Assembly (NCBI RefSeq): GCF_000337735.1
Contig: NZ_AOHX01000041.1
Span: 13,111 to 77,110 of the forward strand
Origin: Natronorubrum sulfidifaciens JCM 14089
Lineage (GTDB): Archaea > Halobacteriota > Halobacteria > Halobacteriales > Natrialbaceae
DNA length: 64,000 nt
Reading direction: 5' to 3'
Shown here piece by piece: positions 17,512 through 46,752 of the stretch; positions within the stretch are counted from its first letter, which is position 1, and every line of letters begins with the position of its first letter. The notes under the pieces are model-generated. The model searched no databases, was not told the DNA's origin, and saw nothing but the letters and a program-made list of their open reading frames with translations. Position numbers and translations under genes: made by a program.

Positions 17512-18348
17512 TCAGCGCCGGCGCAGCGATTGGACACGGCCGTCGAGCCACGCCGAAATCGACCAGCGGCCGACGAGGACGTGAGCGAGTTCGACGCTGA
17601 CGTACGCGAGCGCGATTCCGGCGAGGACGTCGATTACCCAGTGTATGCCGAGATACATCGTCGAGATCGCGACGGAGATTCCGAGGACCGCCGCAACGAT
17701 GTTCCACCCCGGATACTGCACACGGGTTCGATACGCCAGGATGGAGACGGTCGCTGCAAGCGAGGTGTGCAGCGACGGGAAGACGTTGGTGTTGCGGTTG
17801 ACCTGCCGGGTGAGGTGTTGGTACTGCGGATACGTATCGTACAGCAGTGCCTCGACGAGTTCTGGCATCATGTTTCGTGGCCCGTAGGCGATGACGAAGA
17901 CGTAGAGGAGCAGGCCAATGGTGTAGTTCAGCGTGTACGCCGTCAGGAGTTCCCTGAGCGGGCGCGTCTCCGAGAGCGCGAAGTACGCCACGAGCGGAAA
18001 CACCAGCAAGAAGACGTACCCGTATATGTAAATAAACGAAAAGTACGCCGTCACCGCCGGCGTCGCCTGTGCTTGCAGCCAAATAATGAACTCCCCCTCG
18101 AGATCGTAAATCGGGAAGGTGAGGTTCCAGTCGATGATCCACGAAAAATCCGGGACGATCTGTCTGGCGACGCTATTAAAGAGCAAGACGGCGGCGAGAG
18201 CGATCGTGATCGGTGTGGCGGCACGCACTCGCTGTCGCCACGCGCCGCGTGTCTTCCGGAGTCGGTCCCGGCCAACGAACAACGCGGTCGAGACACCGAC
18301 GAGCAGCGTAACGACGACGACCAACTGTGTCAATACCTGTGCTAACAT
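17512..18348 (-). CDS. PAP2/Aur1-like membrane phosphatase or phosphotransferase, copy 1
   Basis: 278 residues, about seven hydrophobic helices. The PAP2 active-site motifs are NVFPSLHTS (189-196, His194) and STMYLGIHWVIDVLAG (229-244, His236 and Asp240). PSLH in place of the classical PSGH, together with HxxxD in HWVIDVLAG, resembles the PAP2_3/Aur1 group, which moves phospho-headgroups between lipids rather than only hydrolysing them. The active site should face outside. The start codon shares one base with the stop of the upstream binding-protein gene (TGATG), so the two are translationally coupled. Substrate unknown; see the module described in the findings. Confidence 0.82.
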   Translation of the reverse strand: MLAQVLTQLVVVVTLLVGVSTALFVGRDRLRKTRGAWRQRVRAATPITIALAAVLLFNSVARQIVPDFSWIIDWNLTFPIYDLEGEFIIWLQAQATPAVTAYFSFIYIYGYVFLLVFPLVAYFALSETRPLRELLTAYTLNYTIGLLLYVFVIAYGPRNMMPELVEALLYDTYPQYQHLTRQVNRNTNVFPSLHTSLAATVSILAYRTRVQYPGWNIVAAVLGISVAISTMYLGIHWVIDVLAGIALAYVSVELAHVLVGRWSISAWLDGRVQSLRRR

Positions 18349-20144
18349 CACTGTCTCACCCGCAGGTTGCCGTCGGCGTCGTACCGAAAGCCAGCCTCCT
18401 CGAACGCCGTCCGTGCCGCGTCGACGTCGACCTCGCCGTTCGAGCCGAGAAACGGCATCGCTGGATCCGCGCCGTCCCACTCGAGGGCGTCGGGGACCCA
18501 CTCGTCGGCCACTGGCGTCGCGATCGGCCTCGCGTAGCCGTGAAACACGTCCTCGACTAGCCACGCCTTGTCGATCAGCTGTGCGACGACCTGTCGAAAT
18601 CGAGGATTGCCAAACGGTGCCGACCGGGCATTGAAGCCGAGGTGGTAGAACGCCCACGACGGCGACTCGAGCAGCCCAACGGCGTCCGTTTCGTCGACGT
18701 CGTCGATGACGTAGCTCTCGAGGGGTGAACTCGTGACGTCGGCGCTGTCGGCTTCGATCAGTTGCATCGCCGACGTACTCCGTGGGTCGATGCCCACTCG
18801 CAGTTCGTCGACGGTCGGCTCGGGGAGGGCCACGTCCGCACGCAGTGTGAAATGGTCGTCGAAGCGCTCGAGTGTCACGTGCTCGCGCTCGGTGTGATCG
18901 TGGTACTGAAACGGCCCGCTGCCGACCGGCGGCAGGTTGTCCGTGACGACTGCATCGGTCGTCCCCTGTGCGATGCGAACGCCGGGGATGGTGGCGGCTG
19001 CTGCCCGCTCCGACCAGTGGTGTTCGGGGAGAATCGGAACTGTCAACGCCTGTTCGCCGACGTCCTGTCCCGTCCCGACCGTGAGTTCGAGTGTGGTCTC
19101 GTCCTGAACGTCGATGTCGTCGACTGCCGCGACGCGGCCGCGATAGCGCGGGGCGGGTGCGGGGGCGGCGCTTCCACCGAGTGCGGTATCCTCGAGGAAT
19201 CGGTAGGTGAAGGCGACGTCGTCGGCCGTCAGCGCCTCGCCGTCGTGGAACGTACAGTCGGGTCGAAGCGAGACACGCAGCGTCGACTCGTCGAGCCACT
19301 CCCAGTCGTCGGCGAGCCAGGGTTCGAGTGAGTGGTCGCCGTCGGTCGCAACGAGGTCAGCTGCGAGCGAGTCGTACAGCAGTTCGATGACCGTTCCTCG
19401 GTCACGATACTCCACGTTCAGGGGATTGAGGTTCTGTGACGGGCGAGCGTCCATGTGGACGGCCCGGAGCTGGTCGGCGCTATCGTCGGTCTGTGGCTCG
19501 AGCCCGAGATACCCCGTTCGTGTCGCGAGATGGCCGTCGGCCCAGCCGTCGAATCGGTCGTCTCTGACGAGTCGGTGCTCGAGCGGCGTACAGATCGGAA
19601 CGAACGGCTGTTCGATCGCCAGTGCCTCGAGTGTCGCTTCGACGGCGTCACGGCGCTGCTCGCCGTCGGCGTCGCGCTGGGCCTCGAGGAGATCATCGAC
19701 CAGTAGATTGGTGAAGCCGAAGGGGTTCTGCCAGCCCGGCTCGTCCGCATACAGCGAGTGGAGCGTCTCGTAGAGAAAGTCCGGATCGAGACCGCCGGGG
19801 TGCGGGCCCACGTAGACATCGAAGTCGTGGTTGATCACCACTGCCCGCCTGAACTCCTCTTGAGAGCGCATCTCGATCGAGACGTCGATGCCGACGGCCT
19901 CGAGAGTCGCGGCGATTTCTCGGGCGAGCAGAATGCTTTCCCGGTCACCATCTGCGGGAAGCGTGGTGATCGTCAGCGAGAGCGGCTCGAGGTCGTCTCG
20001 GTTGACGGTGCTTCGAAATTCACGGACACAGCCGCTGGTCGACGCCATCACTCCAGCAGCACCGGCCAGCGCAGCTCGGCGGCTGATGCCGCCGGCACTG
20101 TCACCGTCGACCTTTCGGCGCGAACCGCTCCGTTGCGTATCCAT
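18348..20144 (-). CDS. Tat lipoprotein, family-5 peptide-binding protein with permuted halves, copy 1
   Basis: 598 residues. Twin-arginine motif SRRAALAG at 21-28 and lipobox with Cys39 (STSGC) predict an exported lipid-anchored protein. Homology to SBP_bac_5 (DppA/OppA) is clear, but the order is rotated. Residues 54-205 match the normal C-terminal part (LSLTITTLP, LEAVGIDVSI, DPDFLYETL, NPFGFTN). Residues 228-598 match the normal N-terminal and middle parts (NLNPLN, FHDGEALTADDVAFTY at 299-314, GSGPFQY, a FRQVVAQLIDKAWL helix). The protein ends at the AFEEAGF hinge point. No permease or ATPase gene is nearby. Coupled to the PAP2 gene downstream. Confidence 0.85.
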   Translation of the reverse strand: MDTQRSGSRRKVDGDSAGGISRRAALAGAAGVMASTSGCVREFRSTVNRDDLEPLSLTITTLPADGDRESILLAREIAATLEAVGIDVSIEMRSQEEFRRAVVINHDFDVYVGPHPGGLDPDFLYETLHSLYADEPGWQNPFGFTNLLVDDLLEAQRDADGEQRRDAVEATLEALAIEQPFVPICTPLEHRLVRDDRFDGWADGHLATRTGYLGLEPQTDDSADQLRAVHMDARPSQNLNPLNVEYRDRGTVIELLYDSLAADLVATDGDHSLEPWLADDWEWLDESTLRVSLRPDCTFHDGEALTADDVAFTYRFLEDTALGGSAAPAPAPRYRGRVAAVDDIDVQDETTLELTVGTGQDVGEQALTVPILPEHHWSERAAAATIPGVRIAQGTTDAVVTDNLPPVGSGPFQYHDHTEREHVTLERFDDHFTLRADVALPEPTVDELRVGIDPRSTSAMQLIEADSADVTSSPLESYVIDDVDETDAVGLLESPSWAFYHLGFNARSAPFGNPRFRQVVAQLIDKAWLVEDVFHGYARPIATPVADEWVPDALEWDGADPAMPFLGSNGEVDVDAARTAFEEAGFRYDADGNLRVRQ

Positions 20145-20176
20145 TTCGTTCGTTTGATACCGTTCGCAGGGAGCAA

Positions 20177-20192
20177 TATAACAACATTGTGC
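20177..20192 (-). promoter_or_regulatory. Promoter/operator of module 1
   Basis: Minus-strand sequence GCACAATGTTGTTATA matches the site in front of module 2 at 14 of 16 positions. TTATA serves as a TATA box about 33 bp before the start codon, and the CAATnTTG dyad sits at the BRE position, where a regulator would overlap TFB. The shared site implies joint control of the two modules. Confidence 0.65.
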
Positions 20193-20249
20193 TACCGGAA
20201 CGCGGTCTCGGACTCGGTAGAGGGTCCGACCGGCGGCGACTCATGCGGG

Positions 20250-20324
20250 TCCCTGGAGTCACTGCCCGCCGGTCGCCGACCCGTGCTGGCGATCGGCGGG
20301 CCATCGGGACAGCACTCCGTCTCA
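20250..20324. repeat. Palindromic 3'-flanking repeat, copy B
   Basis: Stem GCCCGCCGGTCGCC/GGCGATCGGCGGGC (13 of 14 pairs) at 20264-20301 around ACCCGTGCT, followed by the GGGACAGCACTCCGT arm. That arm runs into the stop codon of the second PAP2 gene at 20322. The 25-base core at 20276-20300 is identical in copies C and D. Confidence 0.8.
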
Positions 20325-21167
20325 GAACCACTTGGACTCGAGGAGTTGCCCGTACAGCTCCGAGAGCGACCAGCGCCCGACGATCTGATACGAGAGTGCG
20401 ACACAGAGTACTGCAAGCACCAGCCCGGCAAGGACGTCGATCCCCCAGTGAAGCCCCAGATACATCGTCGAGATGATGACGCTAACGGCGATCACACCGG
20501 CGACGGGGAACCATTTCGGATAGCTCGAGCGAGTGAGATAGGCGAAGATGCCGACCGTCGCCGACAGCGAGGTGTGTAGCGACGGGAAGACGTTGGTGTT
20601 TTGGTTGACTTCCCGGGTCAGATACCTGTACTCGACGCTGTGTTCGTAGATCATCGGTGACGATCCTGACCCCGTAAGCAGCTGTTCGACGAAGACGTTG
20701 CGCGGACCGTACGCGATGACGAGTACGTAAAACACGAGTCCGATCGCGTAGTTGAACGCATACGCAGTGAGCAGCCGCCGGAACATCGTGGTGTCCGACA
20801 GGGCGAAATACGCGATAACCGGGAAGACCAGCAAGAACGTGTAGCCGTAGATGTAGATCGCCGTCAGATACGACGTCAACTCCGGCGTCGCCACTTGCAA
20901 AAAGAGCAGAACGAACTCGCCTTCGGTCTGACGAATCGTCTCGGTCATATGGAACCCGATGTCCGAATCGACACCGCCCCACCGGATCAGTCGGCTGGCC
21001 AGCAACACGACCGAGAGAACGAGAATTGCCGGCGCAGCGACTCGAATTCGGGAGCGCCACTCCGTTCGCGTCGTCGTGAGTCGCGTTCGCCCGACGAACA
21101 ACCCAAGGGCAATCGGGAGCAAGAGTCCGACGACGAGGACGACTCTCGTCAGTACCTCAACGAGCAT
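20322..21167 (-). CDS. PAP2/Aur1-like membrane phosphatase or phosphotransferase, copy 2
   Basis: 281 residues, a paralogue of the protein at 17512-18348 along its whole length. Shared blocks include IYIYGYTFLLVFPVIAYFALS, VIAYGPRNV, TREVNQNTNVFPSLHTS and STMYLGLHWGIDVLAG, so the catalytic His/His/Asp set is kept. Differences lie mainly in the first two helices and in the loop after GPRN, which may set substrate choice. Its ATG shares one base with the stop of the upstream binding-protein gene (TAATG), the same coupling as in copy 1. Palindrome copy B marks its 3' end. Confidence 0.82.
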   Translation of the reverse strand: MLVEVLTRVVLVVGLLLPIALGLFVGRTRLTTTRTEWRSRIRVAAPAILVLSVVLLASRLIRWGGVDSDIGFHMTETIRQTEGEFVLLFLQVATPELTSYLTAIYIYGYTFLLVFPVIAYFALSDTTMFRRLLTAYAFNYAIGLVFYVLVIAYGPRNVFVEQLLTGSGSSPMIYEHSVEYRYLTREVNQNTNVFPSLHTSLSATVGIFAYLTRSSYPKWFPVAGVIAVSVIISTMYLGLHWGIDVLAGLVLAVLCVALSYQIVGRWSLSELYGQLLESKWF

Positions 21168-22987
21168 TAGTTTCGAACACGGAGTCGGCCATTATCGTCG
21201 TACCGAAAGTTGCCCGCCGACTCGAACACCGCGCGTGCCGCCTCGACGTTTACCATCCCATCGGTCCCGATAAACGGTGTGGTCGGGTCTTCACCGTCCC
21301 ACTCGATGTCGTCGGGAACCCAGTCATCGGCGACCGGACTCGAGAGCGGCGTTGCACGGTTGTAGAAGATCCGCTCGGTGATCCACACTTTGTCGAGCAG
21401 CCGGCACACCGCCTGTCGGAACTCCGGATCGCTACACGGCGACACACTCGTGTTGAAGCCGAGATGATAGAACGTCCACGAGGGCGACTCGAGGCGGACG
21501 GCGTCGGAATCATCCGAAATGTCACCGACCGCGTGTGCCTCGAGCATCGATGACGTTAGATCTGCGTCGCCACTTTCGACCCGTGACACCGAGGAGGTAC
21601 TGCCGGGATCGACGCTGAATCGGAGTTCCTCGACGGTCGGCTCGGGGAGGGCCACGTCCGCACGCAGTGTGAAATGGTCGTCGAAGCGCTCGAGATGCAG
21701 GAAGTTCCGTTGGGACTGACTCTCGAACTGGAAGGGGCCGCTCCCGACCGGGGGCACTGAGCTGGTCGTGACGAGCCCCCAGTCCCCCTGTGGTGCCGAG
21801 AAGGAATCGAGGTCGCTAATTCGATCCTGCAGCTCCGCTCGCCAGACGTGTCGCGGGAGGATCGGCACCGTCAGTGCACGATCACCGACTTCAGCACCGG
21901 CATCGACGGTGATCTGGAACTGGTACGGGTCGTCCTCGTCGAGGACGATGTCATCGACTGCGCTTACCTGCCCGCGATATCGCGGTGCCGGCGATGGGGT
22001 GTCGGATTGGCCCCATGCGGTATCGTTGAGAAACGCATACGTGAACTCGACGTCCTCGGCTGTGACCGGCTGGCTGTCGTACTCGTCGCTCTCGTGGAAC
22101 AGACACTCCTCTCGGAGGTGTACTGTCGCCGTCATCCGGCCATCGTCGGTCGGCTCCCACTCCCACTCGCGGGCGAGCCACGGCTCGACGTCGTAGCTCA
22201 CGCCATCGTCGTCTTCGGTGACGACGAGCGTCCCAAGGGAGTCATACAGCAAGTCGACGACCGTCCCTCGCTCACGGATCGTCGCCGAAAGCGGGTTGAC
22301 GTTTTGGCTCGGCCGTGCGTCGGTCACGAGCGCGTGCAGTCGGTCGACATCGTCTTCGGGTTCGAGGCCGAGATAACCACGACGGGTCGCGGGGTGGTCG
22401 TCGCCCCAGCCGTCAAAGCGAGTGTTGGCGACGCGATACTCGTCGGGACGACAGATCGGATCGAACGGCTTCTCCTCGGCGAGCGCTCGCAACACTGGCT
22501 TGAGGAGCTGACGCCGTTCGTCGCCGTCAGCCCGGCGCTGTGCCTCGAGGGACGGGTCGACAAACGTCGGCTGTTTGTATTGGAAGGGGTTCTGCCAGCC
22601 GGCTTCGTCAGCGTACGCGGAGTGGAGGGCCTCGTACAGGAAGTCAGGATCGTAGTCGGCGGGGTGGCGACCGACGTAGAGGTCGAAGTCGTGATCGATC
22701 AGGATCATTTCCAGAAACTCGGAGGGCGACCGCCAGGCGATGGAGGTGTCGATACCGACCGCCTCGAGGTTCCGCTCGAGATGGCGTGCGATGCGGACGG
22801 TCTCTCTGTTGCCATCGTCGGGGACCGTGACGATCGACAGTGAGAGCTGGTCGTCCTCGTCATCGCTGACGACACTTTCGACGGTATCGATACACCCGCT
22901 CAGCGAGAGCGACAGCCCTGCCCCGGTAGCAGCGAGGACTGACCGCCGGTCGATACCGTCAACGTGGTCGGTTGTGTCACAGTTCAT
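21167..22987 (-). CDS. Tat lipoprotein, family-5 peptide-binding protein with permuted halves, copy 2
   Basis: 606 residues, with the same rotated SBP_bac_5 architecture as copy 1. Twin-arginine DRRSVLAAT at 13-21 and lipobox Cys32 (LSLSGC) come first. The C-terminal-type lobe follows (LSLSIVTVP, NLEAVGIDTSI, YDPDFLYEALHSAYAD, FDPICRP), then the N-terminal-type region (NVNPLSA, FHESDEYDSQPVTAEDVEFTY, GSGPFQF). It ends VFESAGNFRYDDNGRLRVRN. Copy 2 has a longer spacer in the FHD/E-ADDV region, so ligand specificity may differ. It is upstream of its own PAP2 gene and has its own promoter site. Confidence 0.85.
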   Translation of the reverse strand: MNCDTTDHVDGIDRRSVLAATGAGLSLSLSGCIDTVESVVSDDEDDQLSLSIVTVPDDGNRETVRIARHLERNLEAVGIDTSIAWRSPSEFLEMILIDHDFDLYVGRHPADYDPDFLYEALHSAYADEAGWQNPFQYKQPTFVDPSLEAQRRADGDERRQLLKPVLRALAEEKPFDPICRPDEYRVANTRFDGWGDDHPATRRGYLGLEPEDDVDRLHALVTDARPSQNVNPLSATIRERGTVVDLLYDSLGTLVVTEDDDGVSYDVEPWLAREWEWEPTDDGRMTATVHLREECLFHESDEYDSQPVTAEDVEFTYAFLNDTAWGQSDTPSPAPRYRGQVSAVDDIVLDEDDPYQFQITVDAGAEVGDRALTVPILPRHVWRAELQDRISDLDSFSAPQGDWGLVTTSSVPPVGSGPFQFESQSQRNFLHLERFDDHFTLRADVALPEPTVEELRFSVDPGSTSSVSRVESGDADLTSSMLEAHAVGDISDDSDAVRLESPSWTFYHLGFNTSVSPCSDPEFRQAVCRLLDKVWITERIFYNRATPLSSPVADDWVPDDIEWDGEDPTTPFIGTDGMVNVEAARAVFESAGNFRYDDNGRLRVRN

Positions 22988-36541: not shown

Positions 36542-37138
36542 ATGATGGAGTTCAGTGGCGAATTCGAACTCGAGGACGTCCCGCCGGAGAAAGCGTGGGT
36601 CGTGCTCTCAGACCCCATTGCCGTCCGAAACGCGCTGAAGGGCTGTCAGTACATCACGCCGATGGACGACGACTTCGGTTTCGACGACTACGAACCCGAA
36701 GAGGACGTCGAAACACTGCCCGAAGCCGACCCGGAAGACGTCGCCGCACGCGCGTTTAAAGAAGGGCAGGAGTACGCGGCGTTGATGCAAGTCGGCGTCG
36801 GCAGCGTCAAGCCCCGCTTCGAGACCTCAGTAACGATCGACGAACGCGACCACGACGACTTCATCATGACCGCAACCGGCAGCGGCACCGCAAGCGGGAG
36901 CAGCTTCAGCATGGAGTCGGGGATGCAGATCCACTCGCTCGAGGACGGCGAGGGGTCGCGCATCGAGTGGTGGACCGAGGCCGACATCTCGGGTCGGATC
37001 GCCCAGCTCGGCTCGCGGGTGATCAAGCCCGTCGCGAACAAGATCGTGGGCAACTTCTTCAGTAACATCGAACAACAGATGTCAGACGTCGAAGAGACGG
37101 ATTCGAGCATCACGGATCGAATCCGCGGGATGTTATGA
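36542..37138 (+). CDS. coxG: CO dehydrogenase subunit G (CoxG, SRPBCC fold)
   Basis: 198 residues. Helix-grip (SRPBCC) fold: MEFSGEFELEDVPPEKAWVVLSDP and ALKGCQYITPM at the start, a beta sheet ending TGSGTASGSSFSMESG, and a C-terminal helix KPVANKIVGNFFSNIEQQM that can attach to the membrane. CoxG is thought to recruit CO dehydrogenase to the membrane. The acidic loop DDDFGFDDYEPEEDVETLPE is a haloarchaeal insertion. ATG 36542 (36545 also possible). First gene of the operon, overlapping coxM by ATGA. Confidence 0.87.
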   Translation: MMEFSGEFELEDVPPEKAWVVLSDPIAVRNALKGCQYITPMDDDFGFDDYEPEEDVETLPEADPEDVAARAFKEGQEYAALMQVGVGSVKPRFETSVTIDERDHDDFIMTATGSGTASGSSFSMESGMQIHSLEDGEGSRIEWWTEADISGRIAQLGSRVIKPVANKIVGNFFSNIEQQMSDVEETDSSITDRIRGML

Positions 37139-38022
37139 AACCAGCACAGTTCGAACAGCACGAACCCAAGACCGTCGAAGAGGCTGTCAGCCTGCTCGAG
37201 AGCTTAGACGACCGGGCGATCCTCTCCGGCGGACAGAGTATGGTCCCGATGCTCCGGTTCCGGCTTGCGGTGCCGGAGACGATCATCGATATCAACCGCA
37301 TCGAGAGCCTCGACTACCTCGAGGAAGACGACGGCTGGCTCAAAATCGGCGCGCTCGCCCGTCACGCGGACGTCGAACACTCCAAACTGGTCGCCGAGAA
37401 CTACGGGAGCTTCGCCGACACGGCACCGCTGGTCGCGGACCCACAGATTCGAAACCGGGGGACAGTCGCGGGCTCTATCGCACAGGCGGACCCGAAAGGC
37501 GACTGGGGCAGCGTCTTACTCGCCCACGAGGGCGAGGTCGTCGCACAGGGGCCCGACGGCGAGCGAGTGATTCCGGCTGATGAGTTCTTCTTGCTGCCGT
37601 ACGATACGACTCTCGACGAGAACGAACTCCTCACCGAAATTCGGGTACCGACACCCGCGCCTCGAGAGGGCAGCGCCTATCACAAACTGAAACGGAAGGT
37701 GGGCGACTACGCGATGGCCGGCTCGGCCGCACGGCTCGTCCTCGACGACGAGGGCCGGATCGAGCAGGCCGGCATCGGGCTGACCGCTGTCGACATCACG
37801 AACGTCCGGGCGACCGACGCCGAGGAGCACCTCGAGGGCGAACGGCCGAGCAGCGAGCTGTTCAAACGTGCTGGCGAGTTGGCAGCCGAACAGTCGAACC
37901 CGGAATCCGACGAACACGGTGACGCGGGCTACAAAGAACGAATGGTAAACGTCCTCACCCAGCGCGCACTCGGCGACGCCGCCGAACGCGCCGGACTCGT
38001 CAAACGGAGGGTATCACAGTGA
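37135..38022 (+). CDS. coxM: CO dehydrogenase medium subunit (FAD)
   Basis: 295 residues. FAD-binding parts are [16 protein letters not shown] (about 31-47) and the second motif [16 protein letters not shown]. The C-terminal region [11 protein letters not shown] matches the CoxM/xanthine dehydrogenase FAD subunit fold. It takes electrons from the 2Fe-2S subunit to the quinone side. An acidic tail insert ([13 protein letters not shown]) is halophilic. It overlaps coxG upstream and coxS downstream by ATGA/GTGA type overlaps. Confidence 0.93.
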
Positions 38023-38639
38023 CGAACACACGAGAGATCACGCTGACGGTCAACGGCACTGAACACACGATCGACGTCGAACCGCGCCAACTGCTGGTGC
38101 ACGCGATCAGGGAGGAGTTGGACATGACCGGCACGCACATCGGCTGTGACACCGGCAACTGCGGGGCCTGTACAGTCCTCAAAGACGGGGAGCCAGTCAA
38201 GTCCTGTCTCATGTTCGCGACGCAAGCCGACGGGAGCGACCTCATGACCGTCGAAGGGATGGAGGAACTGCCCGAAGCGCGCGGTGACTTGCATCCGCTG
38301 CAGGAAGGCTTCCGCGAGGAACACGGCCTGCAGTGTGGCTACTGTACGCCCGGCATGCTGATGTCCGGGAAGGCGTTGCTCGACGAGAACCCGGACCCGA
38401 GCGAGGCGGAGATCCGCGAGGCAATCAGCGGCAACCTCTGTCGGTGTACCGGCTACCAGAACATCGTGCGCTCGATTGAGTACGCCGCGGAGGAACTCGA
38501 GGAGGTCGCGGCTGCCGACGGCGGCACGACCGCGGCATCGACGTTCGACGGCGAGTTCGACTGCGGCGCAGCGAACTGCTGTGGCGGCCCGTCGACCGAT
38601 CGCGATCACGACGCCACCGAAGGCGGTGAACACAGATGA
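38019..38639 (+). CDS. coxS: CO dehydrogenase small subunit (2Fe-2S) with Cys-rich tail
   Basis: 206 residues from a GTG at 38019, longer than the usual ~160. Plant-type 2Fe-2S cluster: Cys43, 48, 51 and 63 ([13 protein letters not shown]). Second cluster: [10 protein letters not shown] (106, 109) and CRCTG (141, 143). After the normal end comes an extension of about 45 residues with Cys182, Cys187 and Cys188 ([14 protein letters not shown]) and a His/Asp tail. A similar CCGG motif occurs in the XdhC/YHS protein of the same operon. The tail may bind metal or regulate assembly; this is inference. Confidence 0.92.
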
Positions 38640-41119
38640 GCAGTGATTCAGAGCGGTTCGCGGAGGCGGAAGACGGCGGCCCCCAGCCCGAAAAACACTG
38701 CGGCCACGGCCGCGGCGGGATGGGCGAGGACGTCAAACGAAAGGAAGACCAGCGCTTCATCACGGGGCGTGGCAACTACGTCGACGACATCAAGAAGCCG
38801 GACATGCTTCACTGCGAGATCGTTCGCAGTCCACACGCCCACGCCCGCATCGAGAACATCGACAAATCTCGAGCGCTGGACGTCGACGGCGTCGTCGCCG
38901 TCCTCACCGCGGACGACTTGCGCGAGTACGATCTCGCGACGATGCCGACGCTGATGGCCGACACCCAGGACGTCCTTGTCAACGACAAAGTCAAGTTCCA
39001 GTCCCAGGAGGTCGCCGCCGTCATCGCGACCGATCGGTACACGGCCAAAGACGGCGCACAGAAGGTCGTCGTCGACTACGACGTACTCGAGCCGGTCGTC
39101 GACGCCGAGGAGTCACTCGAGGACGACGCACCGCTGATCAGAGACGACATCGAGGGCCAAGAAGACAACCACTGTCTCGACTGGGAGACGGGTGACGAGG
39201 AGGCCACCGCCGAGGTCTTCGAGGAGGCCGACGTCACGGTCAAAGAGCAGATGCTCTACCAGCGCCTGCATCCCGCGCCGATCGAGACCTGTGGCGCACT
39301 CGGCGACTACGACCCCGGCAAGGACAAGCTGACCGTCCACATGACCTCGCAGGCACCCCACATCCACCGAACCCTGTTCGCACAGGTCTCGGGCATCCCC
39401 GAACACAAGATCCGGATCGTCAGCCCGGACGTTGGAGGTGGCTTTGGCAACAAGGTGCCGATCTATCCCGGCTACGTCGTCGCCGCCGCAGCGTCGTACG
39501 TCTTAGAACAGCCAGTGAAGTGGGTCGAAGAACGCTCGGAGAACATCCAGTCGACCGGCTTCGCCCGTGACTACGACATGACGGGCGAACTTGCCGCGAC
39601 CGACGACGGCGAGATTCTGGCGGTTCGAACCGACGTGCTCGCAGACCACGGCGCGTACAATGCCGTCGCCCAGCCGTCGAAGTTCCCCGCCGGGTTCTTC
39701 AACATCTTCACGGGGTCGTACGATATCGACACGGCATATGGCTCGCTGACCGCGGCCTACACCAACACCGCACCCGGCGGCGTCGCCTACCGGTGTTCGT
39801 TCCGCGTCACGGAAGCCGTCTACCTCATCGAGCGGATGGTGAAAGTCCTCGCGGACGAACTCGGGATGGACCCCGCCGAGATCCGCCGGAAGAACTTCAT
39901 CCAGCCCGAGCAGTTCCCCTACGAGAGTCCGACCGGGTGGAACTACGACTCGGGTGACTACGAGGGGGCACTGGACAAAGCCCTCGAGATGGCCGACTAC
40001 GACCACTACCGCGAGGAACAACAGCGCCGGATCGACGAGGACGCCGACACACTGCTCGGCATCGGGATCTCCTCGTTCACCGAAGTCGTCGGCGCTGGCC
40101 CCGGCAAGACCTGCGACATCGCGGGCGTCGAGATGTTCGACTCCGCCGAGATCCGGGTCCACCCGACCGGCAACGCGACGGTTCGGGTCGGCGTCCAGAC
40201 GCAGGGACAGGGTCACGAGACCACGTTCGCCCAGATCGTCGCCGAGGAACTCGGCATGGACGTCGACGACATCACCGTCGAACACGGCGACACCGACACC
40301 GATCCGTACGGCCTCGGGACCTACGGCTCCCGAAGTACGCCCGTCGCCGGCGCGGCGGCCGCCGTCGCCTCGCGCAAAGTGCGCGAGAAGGCCAAAGCCA
40401 TCGCCGCGAACGAACTCGAGGCCGCCGAAGAAGACATCACCTGGGACCGAGAAACTGGCGAGTTCCACGTCGCTGGCGCACCGGATCGATCGATCACGAT
40501 CACCGAGATCGCCGCTGGCGCGTACATGAACCATCCCTCGAGCGAAGAGCCGGGCCTCGAGGCGGTCAACTACTACGACCCACCGGAAATGACGTATCCG
40601 TTCGGCTCCTACATCGTCGTCGTGGAAGTCGACCGCGAGACCGGCGAGGTCGAGTTCGAGAAGTTCGTCGCCGTCGACGACTGTGGCAACCGCATCAACC
40701 CGATGATCATCGAGGGCCAGATCCACGGCGGACTCGCCCAGGGAATCGGGACGGCGATGTTAGAGCACGTCACCTTCGACGACAACGGCAACGTCACCGG
40801 CGGTGACTTCATGAACTATCTGCTGCCGACGTCGATGGAGATCCCGAACTTCGAGACGGGCCACACCGTGACGCCGTCGCCCCACCACCCGATCGGGGCG
40901 AAAGGGGTCGGCGAGTCGCCAACGGTTGGCTCGCCGCCGGCGATCGTCAACGCTGTCGTCGACGCGATGAGCCATGCCGGCATCACCCACGTCGAGATGC
41001 CGATGACGCCCGACACCGTCTGGGAGAAACTCGACGAAGCGGGGCTCTCGACCGACCCCGCCGACTACGTCTCCCTCGAGTTCGAGGACCAATCGAGCGA
41101 CACCACGGCTGACGACTGA
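38636..41119 (+). CDS. coxL: Form I aerobic CO dehydrogenase large subunit
   Basis: 827 residues; molybdopterin-cytosine-dinucleotide subunit that oxidises CO to CO2. The active-site loop AYRCSFR (384-390, Cys387) is the diagnostic form I AYxCSFR motif; Cys carries the Mo-S-Cu bridge. The catalytic Glu760 is in [26 protein letters not shown] and the [16 protein letters not shown] block bind the cofactor. An N-terminal extension with [12 protein letters not shown] precedes the normal start and adds another Cys/His site. ATGA overlap with coxS. Form II (xanthine-dehydrogenase-like) is excluded by the loop. Confidence 0.95.
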
Positions 41120-41149
41120 TCAGATCGTGCTCACAGACCACCCACCGAC

Positions 41150-42280
41150 ATGACACCAGACACCGCATCCGACGCCGACCTCGCGGCGCGCGAGCGAGCG
41201 CTGCAAGCGCGTGAGGAACCGTACGCACAGGCGACCGTCGTCCGCCGTGAGCCACCAGTGTCAGCAACCGTCGGCGATCGGGCGCTCGTGACCGCCGACG
41301 GCGAGTTACACGGCTGGATCGGCGGCGTCTCCTGTGCACAATCGCGGGTGGCCGACGAGGCCCAGTCGGCTATCGCCGACGGCGAGCCACGACTGATCGG
41401 CATCGCCCCCGATCCCGACGCGATCGATCGGCCCGGCCTCGAGGCGTTCCCGATGCAGTGTCACAGTCAGGGCACCCTCGAGGTGTTCATCGACCCCGTG
41501 CGTCCGGCGACACGACTGCTCGTCGTGGGTGGATCACCGATCGCCCACTCGCTGGTCAGGCTGGCAAGCGAACTTGACGTCGAGGTAGTGCTCGTCGATC
41601 CCGACGGAGCCGACGCCGATATCCCGACGGAGACGACCGTTTTGACGACGCTCGAGTCCGACGAGATCGTCGAGGCAGTCGGCAGCGGGCCGCTCGTCGC
41701 CATCGCTTCGATGGGCGAGTACGACGCCCGCGGCGTCGTCGCCGGCATCCGCGCTGGAGCACCGTACATCGGCCTCGTAGCCAGTGAGACGCGGGCCGCA
41801 GAGACCGTCGACCACGTTGCCGGACTCCTCGAGGAAGCGCCGGACACCGTGCGCGACGCGGTCACGAGCCCGGCGGGGATCGACATCTCGGCCTCGAGCG
41901 CACCGGAGATCGCGACGAGCCTGCTCGCCGAACTGGTCGAGGTTCGAGCGACCACCAGTGGGGTGGCGGCCTCGAGCGGGCTGGCTACCCACACGGCTGC
42001 CAGCAACGCCTGCGATGCAGACACTGCCGACACCAGCGAGTCGGCGACGGAGACAGCCTCGTGCTGTGGCGGCGGCGAGCGCCCATCGACAACAGAAGCG
42101 AGTGACGAGTCGGCCGTCGATCCCGTCTGTGGGATGACGGTCGACCCGGACGAGGCACCGCAGATCACCCACCAGAAGACGACCTACTACTTCTGTTGTC
42201 ACGGCTGTGCCGACGCCTTTCGAACCGAGCCCGACGAGTATCTCGAGGAATCCACGACCGAAACGATGAACTCAGTATGA
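41150..42280 (+). CDS. XdhC/CoxI-like protein fused to a YHS metal-binding domain
   Basis: 376 residues. The XdhC domain covers about 1-290: WIGGVSCAQSR, FPMQCHSQGTLEVFIDPV and a Rossmann fold LLVVGGSPIAHSLVRLA. It is used in cofactor sulfuration and delivery. A linker with CCGGGERPST (around 305) follows, then a YHS domain: DPVCGMTVDPDEAP at about 324 and FCCHGCADAF near 348. YHS domains in copper ATPases bind copper or other soft metals. In a CO dehydrogenase locus this suggests sulfur and/or copper supply to the Mo-S-Cu centre. It follows coxL by 30 bp and overlaps coxD. Confidence 0.88.
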   Translation: MTPDTASDADLAARERALQAREEPYAQATVVRREPPVSATVGDRALVTADGELHGWIGGVSCAQSRVADEAQSAIADGEPRLIGIAPDPDAIDRPGLEAFPMQCHSQGTLEVFIDPVRPATRLLVVGGSPIAHSLVRLASELDVEVVLVDPDGADADIPTETTVLTTLESDEIVEAVGSGPLVAIASMGEYDARGVVAGIRAGAPYIGLVASETRAAETVDHVAGLLEEAPDTVRDAVTSPAGIDISASSAPEIATSLLAELVEVRATTSGVAASSGLATHTAASNACDADTADTSESATETASCCGGGERPSTTEASDESAVDPVCGMTVDPDEAPQITHQKTTYYFCCHGCADAFRTEPDEYLEESTTETMNSV

Positions 42281-43242
42281 CAGGGGAGACGCCGGAGCTC
42301 GCCGTCGAGGCGATCGACGAGGCGACATTGCGCGAGCGATTCGAGGCCCAACACTACGTCGCGGACGACCGCGTGGTCACGACCGTCCAGCTCGCGTTAC
42401 AGCTCGGCCGGCCGCTGCTCGTCGAGGGCGAACCCGGCAGCGGAAAGACCGAACTGGGGAAAGTCCTCGCCGACGGGTTCGAGACGGAACTGATCCGCCT
42501 CCAGTGTTACGAAGGACTGACTGCCGAAAACGCGCTCTACGAGTGGAACTACACGAAACAGCTGCTTGCCGTCCAGTCGAACGAGGGAACAGTCACCGCC
42601 GACTCCGCGGACGCTGGGGGGACTCGATCCGTCTTCGACGACGAGTATCTGCTCGAGCGGCCGCTGTTGCGTGCGCTGACGGCTGGTGGCGATCGATCAC
42701 CGATCTTGCTGATCGACGAGATCGACCGCGCCGATGAGGCGTTCGAGGCGTTCTTGCTCGAGTTGCTGTCGGAGTATCAGGTGTCGATTCCGGAACTCGG
42801 GACGATCCGCGCGGAGAACCCGCCGATCGTCATCCTCACGTCGAACCGAACTCGCGGGCTCAGCGACGCACTCAAGCGGCGCTGTCTGTATCTCCACGTC
42901 GAGCCGCCGTCGTTCGAGACGGAGTACGAGATCGTCTCGCGCAAAGTGCCCGAACTCGATGCAGCGATCGCAGCCGAAGTCTGTGCCGTCGTCGAACGCC
43001 TCCGCGAGGAGTCGTTCCTCAAACGGCCGGGTGTCGCCGAGACACTCGACTGGGCGCGGGCGGTGGCGACGCTGCGAGCCAACGGCAGCGACGAGCCGTT
43101 GTCGACCGACGAGATCGAACGGACGATCGGCTGTCTGCTCAAGGAGGTCGAAGACGTCACCCGCGTCGACACCGCGTTGCTCGAACAGCTCCATGCGGCC
43201 GCCGCCGCGGCCGACGACCGACTCGAGTCCGCCGAGACATGA
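42277..43242 (+). CDS. coxD: MoxR-type AAA+ ATPase CoxD
   Basis: 321 residues. Walker A GEPGSGKTELGK, Walker B ILLIDEIDRADEAFEAFLLELL, sensor 1 VILTSNRTRGLSDALKRRC and the arginine finger region follow in order. CoxD is the AAA+ chaperone needed to build the [CuSMoO2] cluster in the best-studied bacterium. ATGA overlap with the upstream XdhC/YHS gene and with coxE (CoxD and CoxE work together). Confidence 0.92.
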   Translation: MTGETPELAVEAIDEATLRERFEAQHYVADDRVVTTVQLALQLGRPLLVEGEPGSGKTELGKVLADGFETELIRLQCYEGLTAENALYEWNYTKQLLAVQSNEGTVTADSADAGGTRSVFDDEYLLERPLLRALTAGGDRSPILLIDEIDRADEAFEAFLLELLSEYQVSIPELGTIRAENPPIVILTSNRTRGLSDALKRRCLYLHVEPPSFETEYEIVSRKVPELDAAIAAEVCAVVERLREESFLKRPGVAETLDWARAVATLRANGSDEPLSTDEIERTIGCLLKEVEDVTRVDTALLEQLHAAAAAADDRLESAET

Positions 43243-44672
43243 CGCCACGCGAGCACGCCTCTGAGAACGCCACCGAATCAGATCGGCCTCGAGGCGACCG
43301 TGGCGGGCTCGACCAGCCGACGGGACTCCACACCGTCCCCGACTTCGAGGCTGCACGCACGCACGTCCTGACGGAACTCGTGCGATTTACCGACGAGCTC
43401 CGACAGGCTGGTGTCGACGTGCCGGCGACGGGCACGCTCGAGGGGGCACGAGCGCTCGCCGTCGTCGGGTTTGCCGACCGCGAGCCCGCTGGCGACGCAC
43501 TGCGAGCGGCGTTGCTCTCCGAGGCAGCCGACCGCGAGGCGTTCGACGAGGCGTTTCCACCCTTTTGGCACCGGCTTCGAACAGGCATCGACCGAATCGC
43601 AACCCACGAGGGGACGAGCACGTCGGATGACGACGAGCCGGAACCAGCGGGGTCCGTCGCGCTCGAGGGAGAGGCGTCCGAACTGCTCTCGGAGACGGAG
43701 CCGCCGTCGCTCGAGGGCGACGACGGCGACGGCTCGGAGCGCGCCGAGGTTCGACTGCAGACCGGCCGTCGCCACGCCACGGGCGAACGCCCGATCGACG
43801 AGGATGAGGACGGCGACGCCGTGCGGCGGTATAGCGCCGTTGGCGGGCGCGAACGGGTGGCCGCAACGCCGGCATCGCTGACGGACGCCGAGCGTGACGC
43901 CATCGATCGGTTCGTGAACGCACTGGCGACCGTCCCCGGCCGACGGACCCAGCAGGCCACCGCCGGCGAGCGAATCGACGCGCGACGAGCGCTCCGGTCG
44001 AGTCTCGGAACTGGCGGGACGCCGATGGACCTCCCGACTCGAGACCCAGTCCCGAGCGAGCTACACTGCTGTCTGCTGATCGACGTCAGCGGCTCCGTGC
44101 TGGATACGGTCGACCGCGATACACTCCTTGCCGTTGCCGAACGGCTCCAGACCGTTGCCCGTCGGAGTTCGGTCTTCCTGTTCGATACCGACCTCGTCGA
44201 CGCGACCGAGCAGTTCGAACGCGCTGGCGGTGATCCCGCCGCGGCCCTTCGTGCGGCCGAAATTTCTTGGGGCGGCGGCACGCAGATCGGCGACGCATTT
44301 GAAACGCTGCGGCGACAGCACCGCGACGCGGTGGATCGCCGGACTGTCGTCATCGTCATCAGCGATGGGCTCGACGTCGGCGAGCAGTCGGTCCTCGAGG
44401 AACAGATCACGTGGCTTGCTCGCCGGGCCGCGGCGGTGCTCTGGCTCAACCCGCTCGCCGTCGCGTCGACGTACGAGCCACGAACGCGGGGGATGGAAAC
44501 CTGTCTGCCGTACGTCGACGGCCTCTTTGGCTTCGCTGAGCCGACCGATCTGGCCGAGATCGCCCGCCAACTCGAGCGCCGTGGACTCGACGGCCCGATC
44601 GGCTACGAGTACGATCCACGCCGACAGCAGCCGGCAGAACCCACGCCCAAAAGCGGGGAAGGCCACGAATGA
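43239..44672 (+). CDS. coxE: VWA-domain protein CoxE
   Basis: 477 residues. The N-terminal part is acidic and partly disordered (to about 250). The von Willebrand A domain has the metal site LLIDVSGSVLDTVD (DxSxS) and the later ISDGLDVGE. It is the partner of CoxD; the pair transfers copper or remodels the enzyme at maturation. The long acidic N-terminal region is longer than in many bacterial CoxE proteins. ATGA overlap on both sides. Confidence 0.9.
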   Translation: MTPREHASENATESDRPRGDRGGLDQPTGLHTVPDFEAARTHVLTELVRFTDELRQAGVDVPATGTLEGARALAVVGFADREPAGDALRAALLSEAADREAFDEAFPPFWHRLRTGIDRIATHEGTSTSDDDEPEPAGSVALEGEASELLSETEPPSLEGDDGDGSERAEVRLQTGRRHATGERPIDEDEDGDAVRRYSAVGGRERVAATPASLTDAERDAIDRFVNALATVPGRRTQQATAGERIDARRALRSSLGTGGTPMDLPTRDPVPSELHCCLLIDVSGSVLDTVDRDTLLAVAERLQTVARRSSVFLFDTDLVDATEQFERAGGDPAAALRAAEISWGGGTQIGDAFETLRRQHRDAVDRRTVVIVISDGLDVGEQSVLEEQITWLARRAAAVLWLNPLAVASTYEPRTRGMETCLPYVDGLFGFAEPTDLAEIARQLERRGLDGPIGYEYDPRRQQPAEPTPKSGEGHE

Positions 44673-45598
44673 GCGCTCCGATCCTCCCCACCGTCGTCGA
44701 CCGACTCCGCGAGCGCGGAGCCACTGACGAGGCGACGGTAGCACAGATCACGATCGGGCGATCGACGCTCATGGTCGAACTGGCCGGCGTGGATGGCCGC
44801 GCCGATGATGGGGAGCGCGAAAAGCGACGGACCGCCGGCCTCGCCCACCGCCCGCTGGGGGACGAGCCGTCGACGGCCGATCTCGACCTCGAGACGCTGC
44901 TCGAGTGGGCGACCCAGCCGCCCGCCGATTCGATGCCGGATCGCGATGCCGGATCGATGTCGGACGCCACGACGCTCGAGGTCGCCCTCGGCGTCGCCGC
45001 CGTCAACGCGCTGTCGGTCCCGTTCCTCGAGTGGCAGACGGGCGACCCGATGGCACTGCTTGACTCAGACGTCGACACGATCGCGACCGTCGGACTCTTT
45101 CGGCCCGCATTTCGGAAGTTTTCCGGCGTCGACGTGCGCGTGGTCGAACGCAAACCCGTCGGCGACGTCTCGACGCCCGACGGCGTCACTGTCACGACCT
45201 ACCGGCCGGCCGACGCGGCCGCCGCGATGGCGGGTGCCGAGGTCGTTTTCATCACTGGTTCGACGTTCGTCTACGGCGGCCTCGAGCAATACCTCGAGGC
45301 CGCCCCGGAGACGGCGACGGTCGTCGTGATCGGGGCGACTGCGTCCATGCTTCCGGAGCCGGCGTTTACGGCCGGTGTGACGGTCGTCGCCGGCGCGTCG
45401 GTCACCGATCCCAGTCGAGTTCGCGAGGCGATCCGCGCCGATGCGTGCGGAACTGAGTTACACGAGGCTGGCGTAGAGAAAGTATACACAGTGACTGATC
45501 GTCCCACCGGTGTCGGTCGGAGGCTACAGCTGTCACGCGCGGACTCACCGGACCGAGACGAACCGAACGACGACCGATCAAAAAGACCCAACCGATGA
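44669..45598 (+). CDS. DUF364/DUF4213 putative heavy-metal-chelation protein
   Basis: 309 residues. The first third (SAPILPTVVDRL, TIGRSTLMVELAG) resembles DUF4213. The rest is a Rossmann-like DUF364 domain: IATVGLFRPAFRKF, VVERKP, AEVVFITGSTFVYGGLEQYL, VVVIGATASMLPE. Members are thought to bind heavy metals or carry nucleotides, without proof. Its presence between coxE and an XdhC gene, coupled by ATGA overlaps on both ends, ties it to CO dehydrogenase maturation; a role in Mo or Cu handling is inferred. This partner is not part of the classic bacterial cox set as I know it. Confidence 0.78.
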   Translation: MSAPILPTVVDRLRERGATDEATVAQITIGRSTLMVELAGVDGRADDGEREKRRTAGLAHRPLGDEPSTADLDLETLLEWATQPPADSMPDRDAGSMSDATTLEVALGVAAVNALSVPFLEWQTGDPMALLDSDVDTIATVGLFRPAFRKFSGVDVRVVERKPVGDVSTPDGVTVTTYRPADAAAAMAGAEVVFITGSTFVYGGLEQYLEAAPETATVVVIGATASMLPEPAFTAGVTVVAGASVTDPSRVREAIRADACGTELHEAGVEKVYTVTDRPTGVGRRLQLSRADSPDRDEPNDDRSKRPNR

Positions 45599-46752
45599 CA
45601 CGAAACAACTGGAGTGTACCGGAGACCGAAGTACTACAGCGCGTCCACGAGCGACTCGAGGGCGACGGCGCGGACGTCCTCGCGACGATCGTCGACGTCG
45701 AAGGCAACGCCTACCGTCGACCGGGGGCGAAGATGCTCCTCGACGAAGCGGGCGAGGGCGTCGGCGCGATTACGGCCGGCTGTCTCGAGGACGATCTGCT
45801 CGCGGCAGCCGAGTCAGTCCGCGAGCACGGCCAGCCGGAACTGCTCACGTACGATCTGATGGACGACGAAGACGACGTCTGGGGACTCGGCGTCGGCTGC
45901 AACGGGATCATCGACGTCCTGCTCGAGCCCCTGACCGAGACGTATCGGCCAGCGATCGAGGCGTTTGCCGACGGCCGAGACGTCGCCGTCCTCACCGTAC
46001 TCGAGGGTGGCGACGGCCCACTGAGCCGTGGCGATCGAGTGTACTACCACCCGGAGGATGGGGAGTTGACGACGCCGGACGGAGAGCCAGCAACGGCGTG
46101 GCCCGAGACCCTCGCTGCCCCCGCCGCGTCCCTCGCCGAGCGCGGTCGAGCCGACATCGTCGAGCTCACCGAGCAGGGACAGGACCTCGAGGTGTTCATC
46201 GACGGGCTGGCCGCGCCGACGGAGCTGGTCGTCTTCGGCTCCGGCCACGACGTGGGGCCGGTCACCGAACTGGCGGCGAAAAACGATTTCCGCGTGACTG
46301 TCGTCGGCTTTCGGGGGAGTGTCGACCTCGAGGAGCGGTTCCCCGACGCCGACGAGACGCTGACGACCTCGCCGGCAGCCGTCGACGACGACCTCACCCT
46401 CGACGAGCGAACCTACGCGGTCGTGATGACGCACAACTTCATCGACGATCGCCTGACGGTCGAGCAGTTGCTTGATTCGTCGGCTGCGTACATCGGCCTG
46501 ATGGGACCACACGACCGCTTCGAGAAGATGCTCACGGAGTTCGACGAGGAAGGCCGAACGTTCGACGAGGAGGCGCTGTCGTCGCTGTACACCCCGATCG
46601 GCCTCGATCTCGGCGGGGGGTCGCCGTACCAGATCGCCCACAGCATCGTCGCGGAGGTGTTGGCGGTCTCGAACGACCGAGCGCCACAACATCTGAAAGC
46701 CCGCGAGGGCCACATCCACGACCGCATCACTGTCGACTCCCCGACACAGTAA
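45595..46752 (+). CDS. XdhC/CoxF-family protein
   Basis: 385 residues. Two-part XdhC layout: the N-terminal part has VLATIVDVEGNAYRRPGAKMLL and GAITAGCLEDDLL, and GLGVGCNGIIDVLLEP is the Cys-containing block. The C-terminal Rossmann domain has LVVFGSGHDVGPVTELA and AYIGLMGPHDRFEKML. XdhC proteins bind the molybdenum cofactor and pass it, with sulfur, to the apoenzyme. This is the second XdhC-type protein of the cluster, without a YHS domain. Last gene of the operon. Confidence 0.9.
   Translation: MTRNNWSVPETEVLQRVHERLEGDGADVLATIVDVEGNAYRRPGAKMLLDEAGEGVGAITAGCLEDDLLAAAESVREHGQPELLTYDLMDDEDDVWGLGVGCNGIIDVLLEPLTETYRPAIEAFADGRDVAVLTVLEGGDGPLSRGDRVYYHPEDGELTTPDGEPATAWPETLAAPAASLAERGRADIVELTEQGQDLEVFIDGLAAPTELVVFGSGHDVGPVTELAAKNDFRVTVVGFRGSVDLEERFPDADETLTTSPAAVDDDLTLDERTYAVVMTHNFIDDRLTVEQLLDSSAAYIGLMGPHDRFEKMLTEFDEEGRTFDEEALSSLYTPIGLDLGGGSPYQIAHSIVAEVLAVSNDRAPQHLKAREGHIHDRITVDSPTQ

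Follow-up and report, generated by a model that had tools for sequence, protein, structure and literature searches.

The window, a stretch of 64,000 nucleotides from Natronorubrum sulfidifaciens JCM 14089 (Natrialbaceae), carries at positions 17512-22987 a minus-strand set of four genes, SBP1, PAP2-1, SBP2 and PAP2-2, arranged as two pairs of a substrate-binding protein (SBP) and a PAP2 protein. In public annotation, the former is an 'ABC transporter substrate-binding protein' and the latter a 'phosphatase PAP2 family protein' or an 'inositol phosphorylceramide synthase'. The two pairs comprise the following features:

21167..22987, minus strand: SBP1, circularly permuted SBP_bac_5 Tat lipoprotein, 606 aa (Pfam, DppA comparison, rotation test)
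22892..22948, minus strand: SBP1 twin-arginine motif to lipobox Cys, RRSVLAATGAGLSLSLSGC (sequence; pattern in 114/114 homologues)
22340..22846, minus strand: SBP1 residues 48-216, equivalent to the C-terminal segment of normal SBPs (DppA comparison, sequence, rotation test)
21170..22339, minus strand: SBP1 residues 217-606, equivalent to the N-terminal segment of normal SBPs (Pfam, DppA comparison, rotation test)
21165..21169, minus strand: TAATG, overlap of SBP1 stop and PAP2-1 start (sequence; -1 overlap in 36/97 pairs)
20322..21167, minus strand: PAP2-1, PAP2_3 (Aur1-type) integral membrane enzyme, 281 aa (Pfam, homologue alignment)
18348..20144, minus strand: SBP2, circularly permuted SBP_bac_5 Tat lipoprotein, 598 aa (Pfam, rotation test, AF2 model)
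20028..20081, minus strand: SBP2 twin-arginine motif to lipobox Cys, RRAALAGAAGVMASTSGC (sequence; homologue pattern)
19470..19982, minus strand: SBP2 residues 55-225, equivalent to the C-terminal segment of normal SBPs (sequence, rotation test, DppA comparison)
18351..19469, minus strand: SBP2 residues 226-598, equivalent to the N-terminal segment of normal SBPs (Pfam, rotation test, AF2 alignment to residues 1 to ~350 of solved SBPs)
18346..18350, minus strand: TGATG, overlap of SBP2 stop and PAP2-2 start (sequence)
17512..18348, minus strand: PAP2-2, PAP2_3 (Aur1-type) integral membrane enzyme, 278 aa (Pfam, AF2 model, structural matches)
17767..17778, minus strand: PAP2-2 motif C2, PSLH, with His194 (invariant in 65 homologues)
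17629..17643, minus strand: PAP2-2 motif C3, HWVID, with His236 and Asp240 (His and Asp invariant in 65 homologues)

Pair 1 and pair 2 are 53% identical, the same value for the SBP and the PAP2 genes. As the earlier note described, each SBP gene runs into its PAP2 gene through a one-base stop/start overlap (TAATG in pair 1, TGATG in pair 2), and the copies diverge most at SBP2 residues ~363-400 (32-38% identity) and PAP2 residues 41-75 (25%); the signal region is also among the least identical parts of the two SBP copies. Possibly, the two copies are tuned to different substrates. Several residues are kept across all SBP copies. Elsewhere in the window, a gene run at 36542-46752 resembles, as judged by eye, a molybdenum hydroxylase cluster (CO/xanthine dehydrogenase type) with maturation factors.

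SBP1 and SBP2 had been taken for Tat lipoproteins, and both indeed carry a twin arginine and a lipobox cysteine. This pattern was found in 114 of 114 SBP homologues, versus 3.9 expected in shuffles. Judged from these signals, the SBPs are expected to lie outside the cell through Tat export and a lipid anchor. The topology of PgpB, LpxE and Aur1 is established, with the active site outside, and by likeness to these enzymes the PAP2 active site is expected to face the same side.

The binding proteins had been described as rotated, with the lobe segments in swapped order, and the order of profile matches, the order of DppA blocks and a rotation test agree on this. SBP1 and SBP2 score 131 and 167 bits against the Pfam SBP_bac_5 profile (cut-off 32.4), and neither has the canonical N-to-C lobe order: profile positions 2-282/284 fall at residues 267-597, beyond which the chain is too short for the remainder, and a further profile search found the profile end (287-360) upstream of the main match. 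Likewise, phmmer aligned query residues 266-545 to DppA chain residues 45-303 and query residues 59-174 to chain residues 357-471. A full-length match was obtained only after rotation, which gave one contiguous and higher-scoring SBP_bac_5 match for each protein (SBP1: 2-357, 143.8 bits vs 131.3 native; SBP2: 2-360, 181.8 bits vs 167 native). As a control, this profile matched the normal SBPs of the same genome (loci L040 and L041) in the ordinary order. The chain ends at the segment EAGFRYDADGN, where the earlier note had placed its end.

The AF2 model of mature SBP2 (pLDDT 94.7, pTM 0.92) aligned through residues 182-560 to residues 1 to ~350 of NikZ, AppA and DppA with Z scores of 20-23.6, the pattern expected from a break near DppA residue 345. 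Foldseek and VIA-align, being sequential aligners, cannot reveal whether the permuted N-terminal segment superposes, and the rotation test was used instead. Among the phmmer matches listed, we saw no solved structure of a permuted SBP_bac_5 protein.

The rotation had also been read as a sign of departure from import, and this reading did not hold. Searching plasmids with tblastn returned full-length, one-piece matches at ~25% identity to SBPs that belong to complete importer operons from Alphaproteobacteria and haloarchaea, and both Pfam and DppA comparisons placed these in the same rotated order with the same breakpoint as SBP1 and SBP2. Further permuted SBPs came from haloarchaea and from a single methanogen family (f21), in which loci L154, L155, L156 and L157 encode them at full length next to permeases and ATPases; the breakpoint in the methanogens is again the same. 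A set of two permeases and two ATPases is present at nearly every permuted importer locus read. Permuted SBPs in complete importers mean that rotation by itself carries no signal of lost transport, and we rejected that reading. In the tree, six importer SBPs cluster with rotated normal SBPs; since the permuted SBPs of the f21 methanogens take such a position, there may have been more than one permutation event. Three importers with permuted SBPs (L119 7109-17446, L120 7887-17246 and L121 3038-14062) adjoin creatininase, hydantoinase/oxoprolinase, RraA, Rid, racemase and amidohydrolase genes, which suggests that they take up lactams, hydantoins or compounds resembling creatinine. The permutation predates the SBP-PAP2 unit and is more widespread than it; what is new in the unit is the swap of partner, from permeases to an Aur1/LpxE-like PAP2.

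Coupling of SBP to PAP2 proved far more general than the single locus at which it was noticed. In a set of 293 Halobacteriales genomes, 120 among the 150 SBP matches listed are followed immediately by a same-strand PAP2. Most of the remaining matches listed also adjoin a PAP2, following one in the order SBP-PAP2-SBP, in which ~18 of the SBPs listed stand. For further PAP2 matches without an SBP in the list, a permuted SBP adjoins every one read, one of these SBPs being partial. A PAP2 relative at E < 1e-45 occurs in ~171/293 genomes (counted from the table); such close relatives are kept in well over half of the sampled genomes, almost always in translational coupling with a permuted SBP. Haloferax gibbonsii is among the haloarchaea in which the pair occurs. 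The function of the pair is dispensable, because ~40% of the Halobacteriales genomes have no close PAP2 relative. Among 97 pairs read, the genes overlap by one base in 36 and by four in 17 (-1 or -4, 53/97).

PAP2-coupled SBPs form one clade with a support of 100/100 in a tree that includes importer and rotated normal SBPs, and 29 of their near-invariant residues, including W138, Q139, P141, F142, Y500, G503 and F565, are absent from importers. Distances between SBPs and between PAP2s correlate (r 0.86, a value that shared descent alone would also give), and tandem copies correspond as whole pairs in 6/6 comparisons. The SBP-PAP2 module is thus a unit of Halobacteria with a single origin. We considered a larger conserved operon and rejected it: flanking genes vary between families, and the pair itself is therefore the conserved unit.

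Several loci depart from the simple pair. Another contig of the same genome carries a third, diverged pair (L039 8714-11403, G000:C46; SBP identity 32%). An ABC transporter of two permeases and one ATPase is encoded ~5 kb from this pair but is unrelated to it. The order SBP-PAP2-SBP, from which a second PAP2 has apparently been lost, is found at L045 6790-11277 and in G193, G055, G134 and others. Two SBPs may share one enzyme at such loci, and a strict one-to-one stoichiometry is accordingly not needed. SBPs of the PAP2-coupled clade also occur with no adjoining PAP2 (L048 8526-10292; L118, G041:C1:437162-438925). In Natronorubrum bangense, one 17.8 kb region is present in both the chromosome and the plasmid record (L031, L032), with its genes at identical coordinates; this reflects either a recent duplication or an artefact of assembly.

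No Opp-type permease/ATPase set was found near PAP2-coupled SBPs in the 27 neighbourhoods examined (0/27), in agreement with the claim that no importer lies in reach of the pairs. SBP1 and SBP2 themselves are not linked to the two permeases and two ATPases that mark an Opp/Dpp receptor. The genome encodes five SBP_bac_5 proteins: two are normal and sit inside importer operons (L040, L041), while the other three are permuted and come with PAP2. Its four best BPD_transp_1 matches all lie inside these two operons, and its only OppC_N match lies in one of them. The idea that the SBP acts as a sensor or carrier which feeds a phosphatase or transferase, rather than as an import receptor, is plausible for the PAP2-coupled clade, because this clade never stands beside permeases and the top-scoring Opp-type permeases belong to the two operons with normal SBPs.

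As to the ligand, the peptide carboxylate is bound in DppA by Arg355 and the amino group by Asp408. Neither residue has a conserved counterpart in the permuted SBPs, where these positions are variable or aligned to G/A (the Asp408 loop was aligned by eye), so that recognition of dipeptides in the manner of DppA is unlikely. The structural neighbours of the SBP include AccA, a binder of agrocinopine and sugar phosphates; this likeness can serve only as a lead to the ligand.

The PAP2 proteins scored 63-65 bits against Pfam PAP2_3 (cut-off 27). The catalytic residues of the family, His194 of C2 and the His236 and Asp240 of C3, are invariant in 65 homologues, as is Arg158 of the YGPRN-type motif. 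The canonical C3 arginine (SR....H) is absent; an invariant Thr230 takes its place, and 'SR' reads 'ST'. The AF2 model of PAP2-2 (pLDDT 94.1) best matched fungal IPC synthase/Aur1 in the PDB (Z 18.8 and 17.5), followed by LpxE (16.1), a sphingomyelin-synthase-related protein (14.3) and a PgpB-type phosphatase (13.9). Sequence profiles reach PgpB and LpxE, and Aur1 weakly (E ~0.002). The kinship with Aur1/IPC synthase is a fold similarity of the model, and head-group transfer is putative.

Related methanogen PAP2s (~E 1e-30) adjoin, in several genomes, GT28-type glycosyltransferases, LPG_synthase_TM, UDP-sugar dehydrogenases or sugar nucleotidyltransferases. These neighbourhoods form a lipid or glycan setting; they suggest lipid- or polyprenol-linked substrates and do not tell hydrolase from transferase. 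No SBP adjoins these PAP2s, so that the link between PAP2 and SBP does not extend to them beyond Halobacteria. The closest PAP2 outside Halobacteriales (E 7.9e-49) lies on a low-GC archaeal contig (L124 1497-4201), next to a nitrilase-like gene and two TatC-like proteins.

We propose, with a probability of about 0.5, that the permuted SBP and the Aur1/LpxE-like PAP2 form a receptor-enzyme unit at the outer surface of the haloarchaeal membrane, in which a lipid-phosphate enzyme would be fed or gated by its receptor. The lipid-anchored SBP would bind a polar ligand other than a DppA-type dipeptide and would dock on the PAP2, which would take the role that permeases play in the importer relatives. 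The outward-facing PAP2 would act on a membrane or polyprenyl lipid by removing or transferring a head group attached through phosphate, and the SBP might supply or recognise the head group, the acceptor or the product. In Natrialbaceae, tandem duplication of the module looks as if it served two ligands or conditions. More tentatively, an importer-receptor lineage that was already permuted may have been recruited a single time, in Halobacteria, by a lipid phosphotransferase, and may now feed its ligand to the enzyme on the outer membrane face. The result would be a lipid-modifying machine that is fed by a receptor, works independently of ATP and has no described counterpart.

Instead of handing over a substrate, the SBP could be a ligand-responsive switch of PAP2 activity. 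SBP-family proteins with a non-transport partner do exist in haloarchaea, as in BasB/BasT, where such a protein serves a chemotaxis transducer (PMC2841640). The lack of a permease near the pair fits this reading, and SBP-PAP2-SBP loci would allow two inputs on one enzyme. However, the many residues common to all copies argue for one common ligand or partner and not for diverse signals. To our knowledge, there is also no earlier case of an SBP gating a PAP2 enzyme, and we regard a switch as unlikely.

Scavenging appears more doubtful still. Here the SBP would catch an exogenous phosphate ester, the PAP2 would dephosphorylate it at the membrane, and an unlinked transporter would import the product. 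AccA is among the close structural relatives of the SBP, the permuted relatives are importer SBPs, and PAP2 folds include soluble acid phosphatases; yet the best matches of the PAP2 are membrane lipid enzymes, and the best-scoring Opp-type permeases of the genome all adjoin the two normal SBPs. That the permuted SBPs are ordinary receptors for a permease encoded elsewhere, with a meaningless PAP2 link, is very improbable: permuted relatives do come with linked permeases, but order-wide coupling with overlapping frames and a clade apart from importers is hard to obtain by chance, and the genome has only two Opp-type operons, with a normal SBP in each.

We found no paper on permuted SBP_bac_5 proteins or on the SBP-PAP2 pair in a literature search that covered few subscription papers. 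The parts come from known families, and their arrangement is new. A circularly permuted OppA/DppA fold occurs naturally, in complete importer operons of archaea and bacteria, where it is hidden under a plain ABC transporter substrate-binding annotation. If the receptor-enzyme unit is real, it would be a third use of the SBP fold, after transport and chemotaxis, and a handle on haloarchaeal outer-leaflet lipid or glycolipid chemistry.

Both lobes of DppA/OppA/NikA-type SBPs match SBP1 and SBP2, which differ in their rotated lobe segments, in lacking conserved Arg355/Asp408 counterparts and in having no permease or ATPase. The permuted importer SBPs of Nitratireductor (L119, WP_206544944.1) and Halalkalicoccus jeotgali (L120, WP_238532955.1) share fold and breakpoint with SBP1 and SBP2 at ~25% identity over the whole chain, but they are followed by two permeases and two ATPases, have no PAP2 and fall outside the PAP2-coupled clade. 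Aur1/IPC synthase, LpxE and PgpB share with PAP2-2 the fold (Z 18.8 for IPC synthase, 16.1 for LpxE) and the catalytic His/His/Asp, whereas PAP2-2 is co-encoded with a binding lipoprotein, has 'ST' for 'SR' in C3 and resembles Aur1 weakly in sequence. CosB/CosT of haloarchaea is the same kind of pairing as BasB/BasT. Like the SBP-PAP2 pair, BasB/BasT joins an SBP-family lipoprotein to a non-transport membrane protein (PMC2841640); BasT, however, is a chemotaxis transducer, whereas the PAP2 partner is an enzyme.
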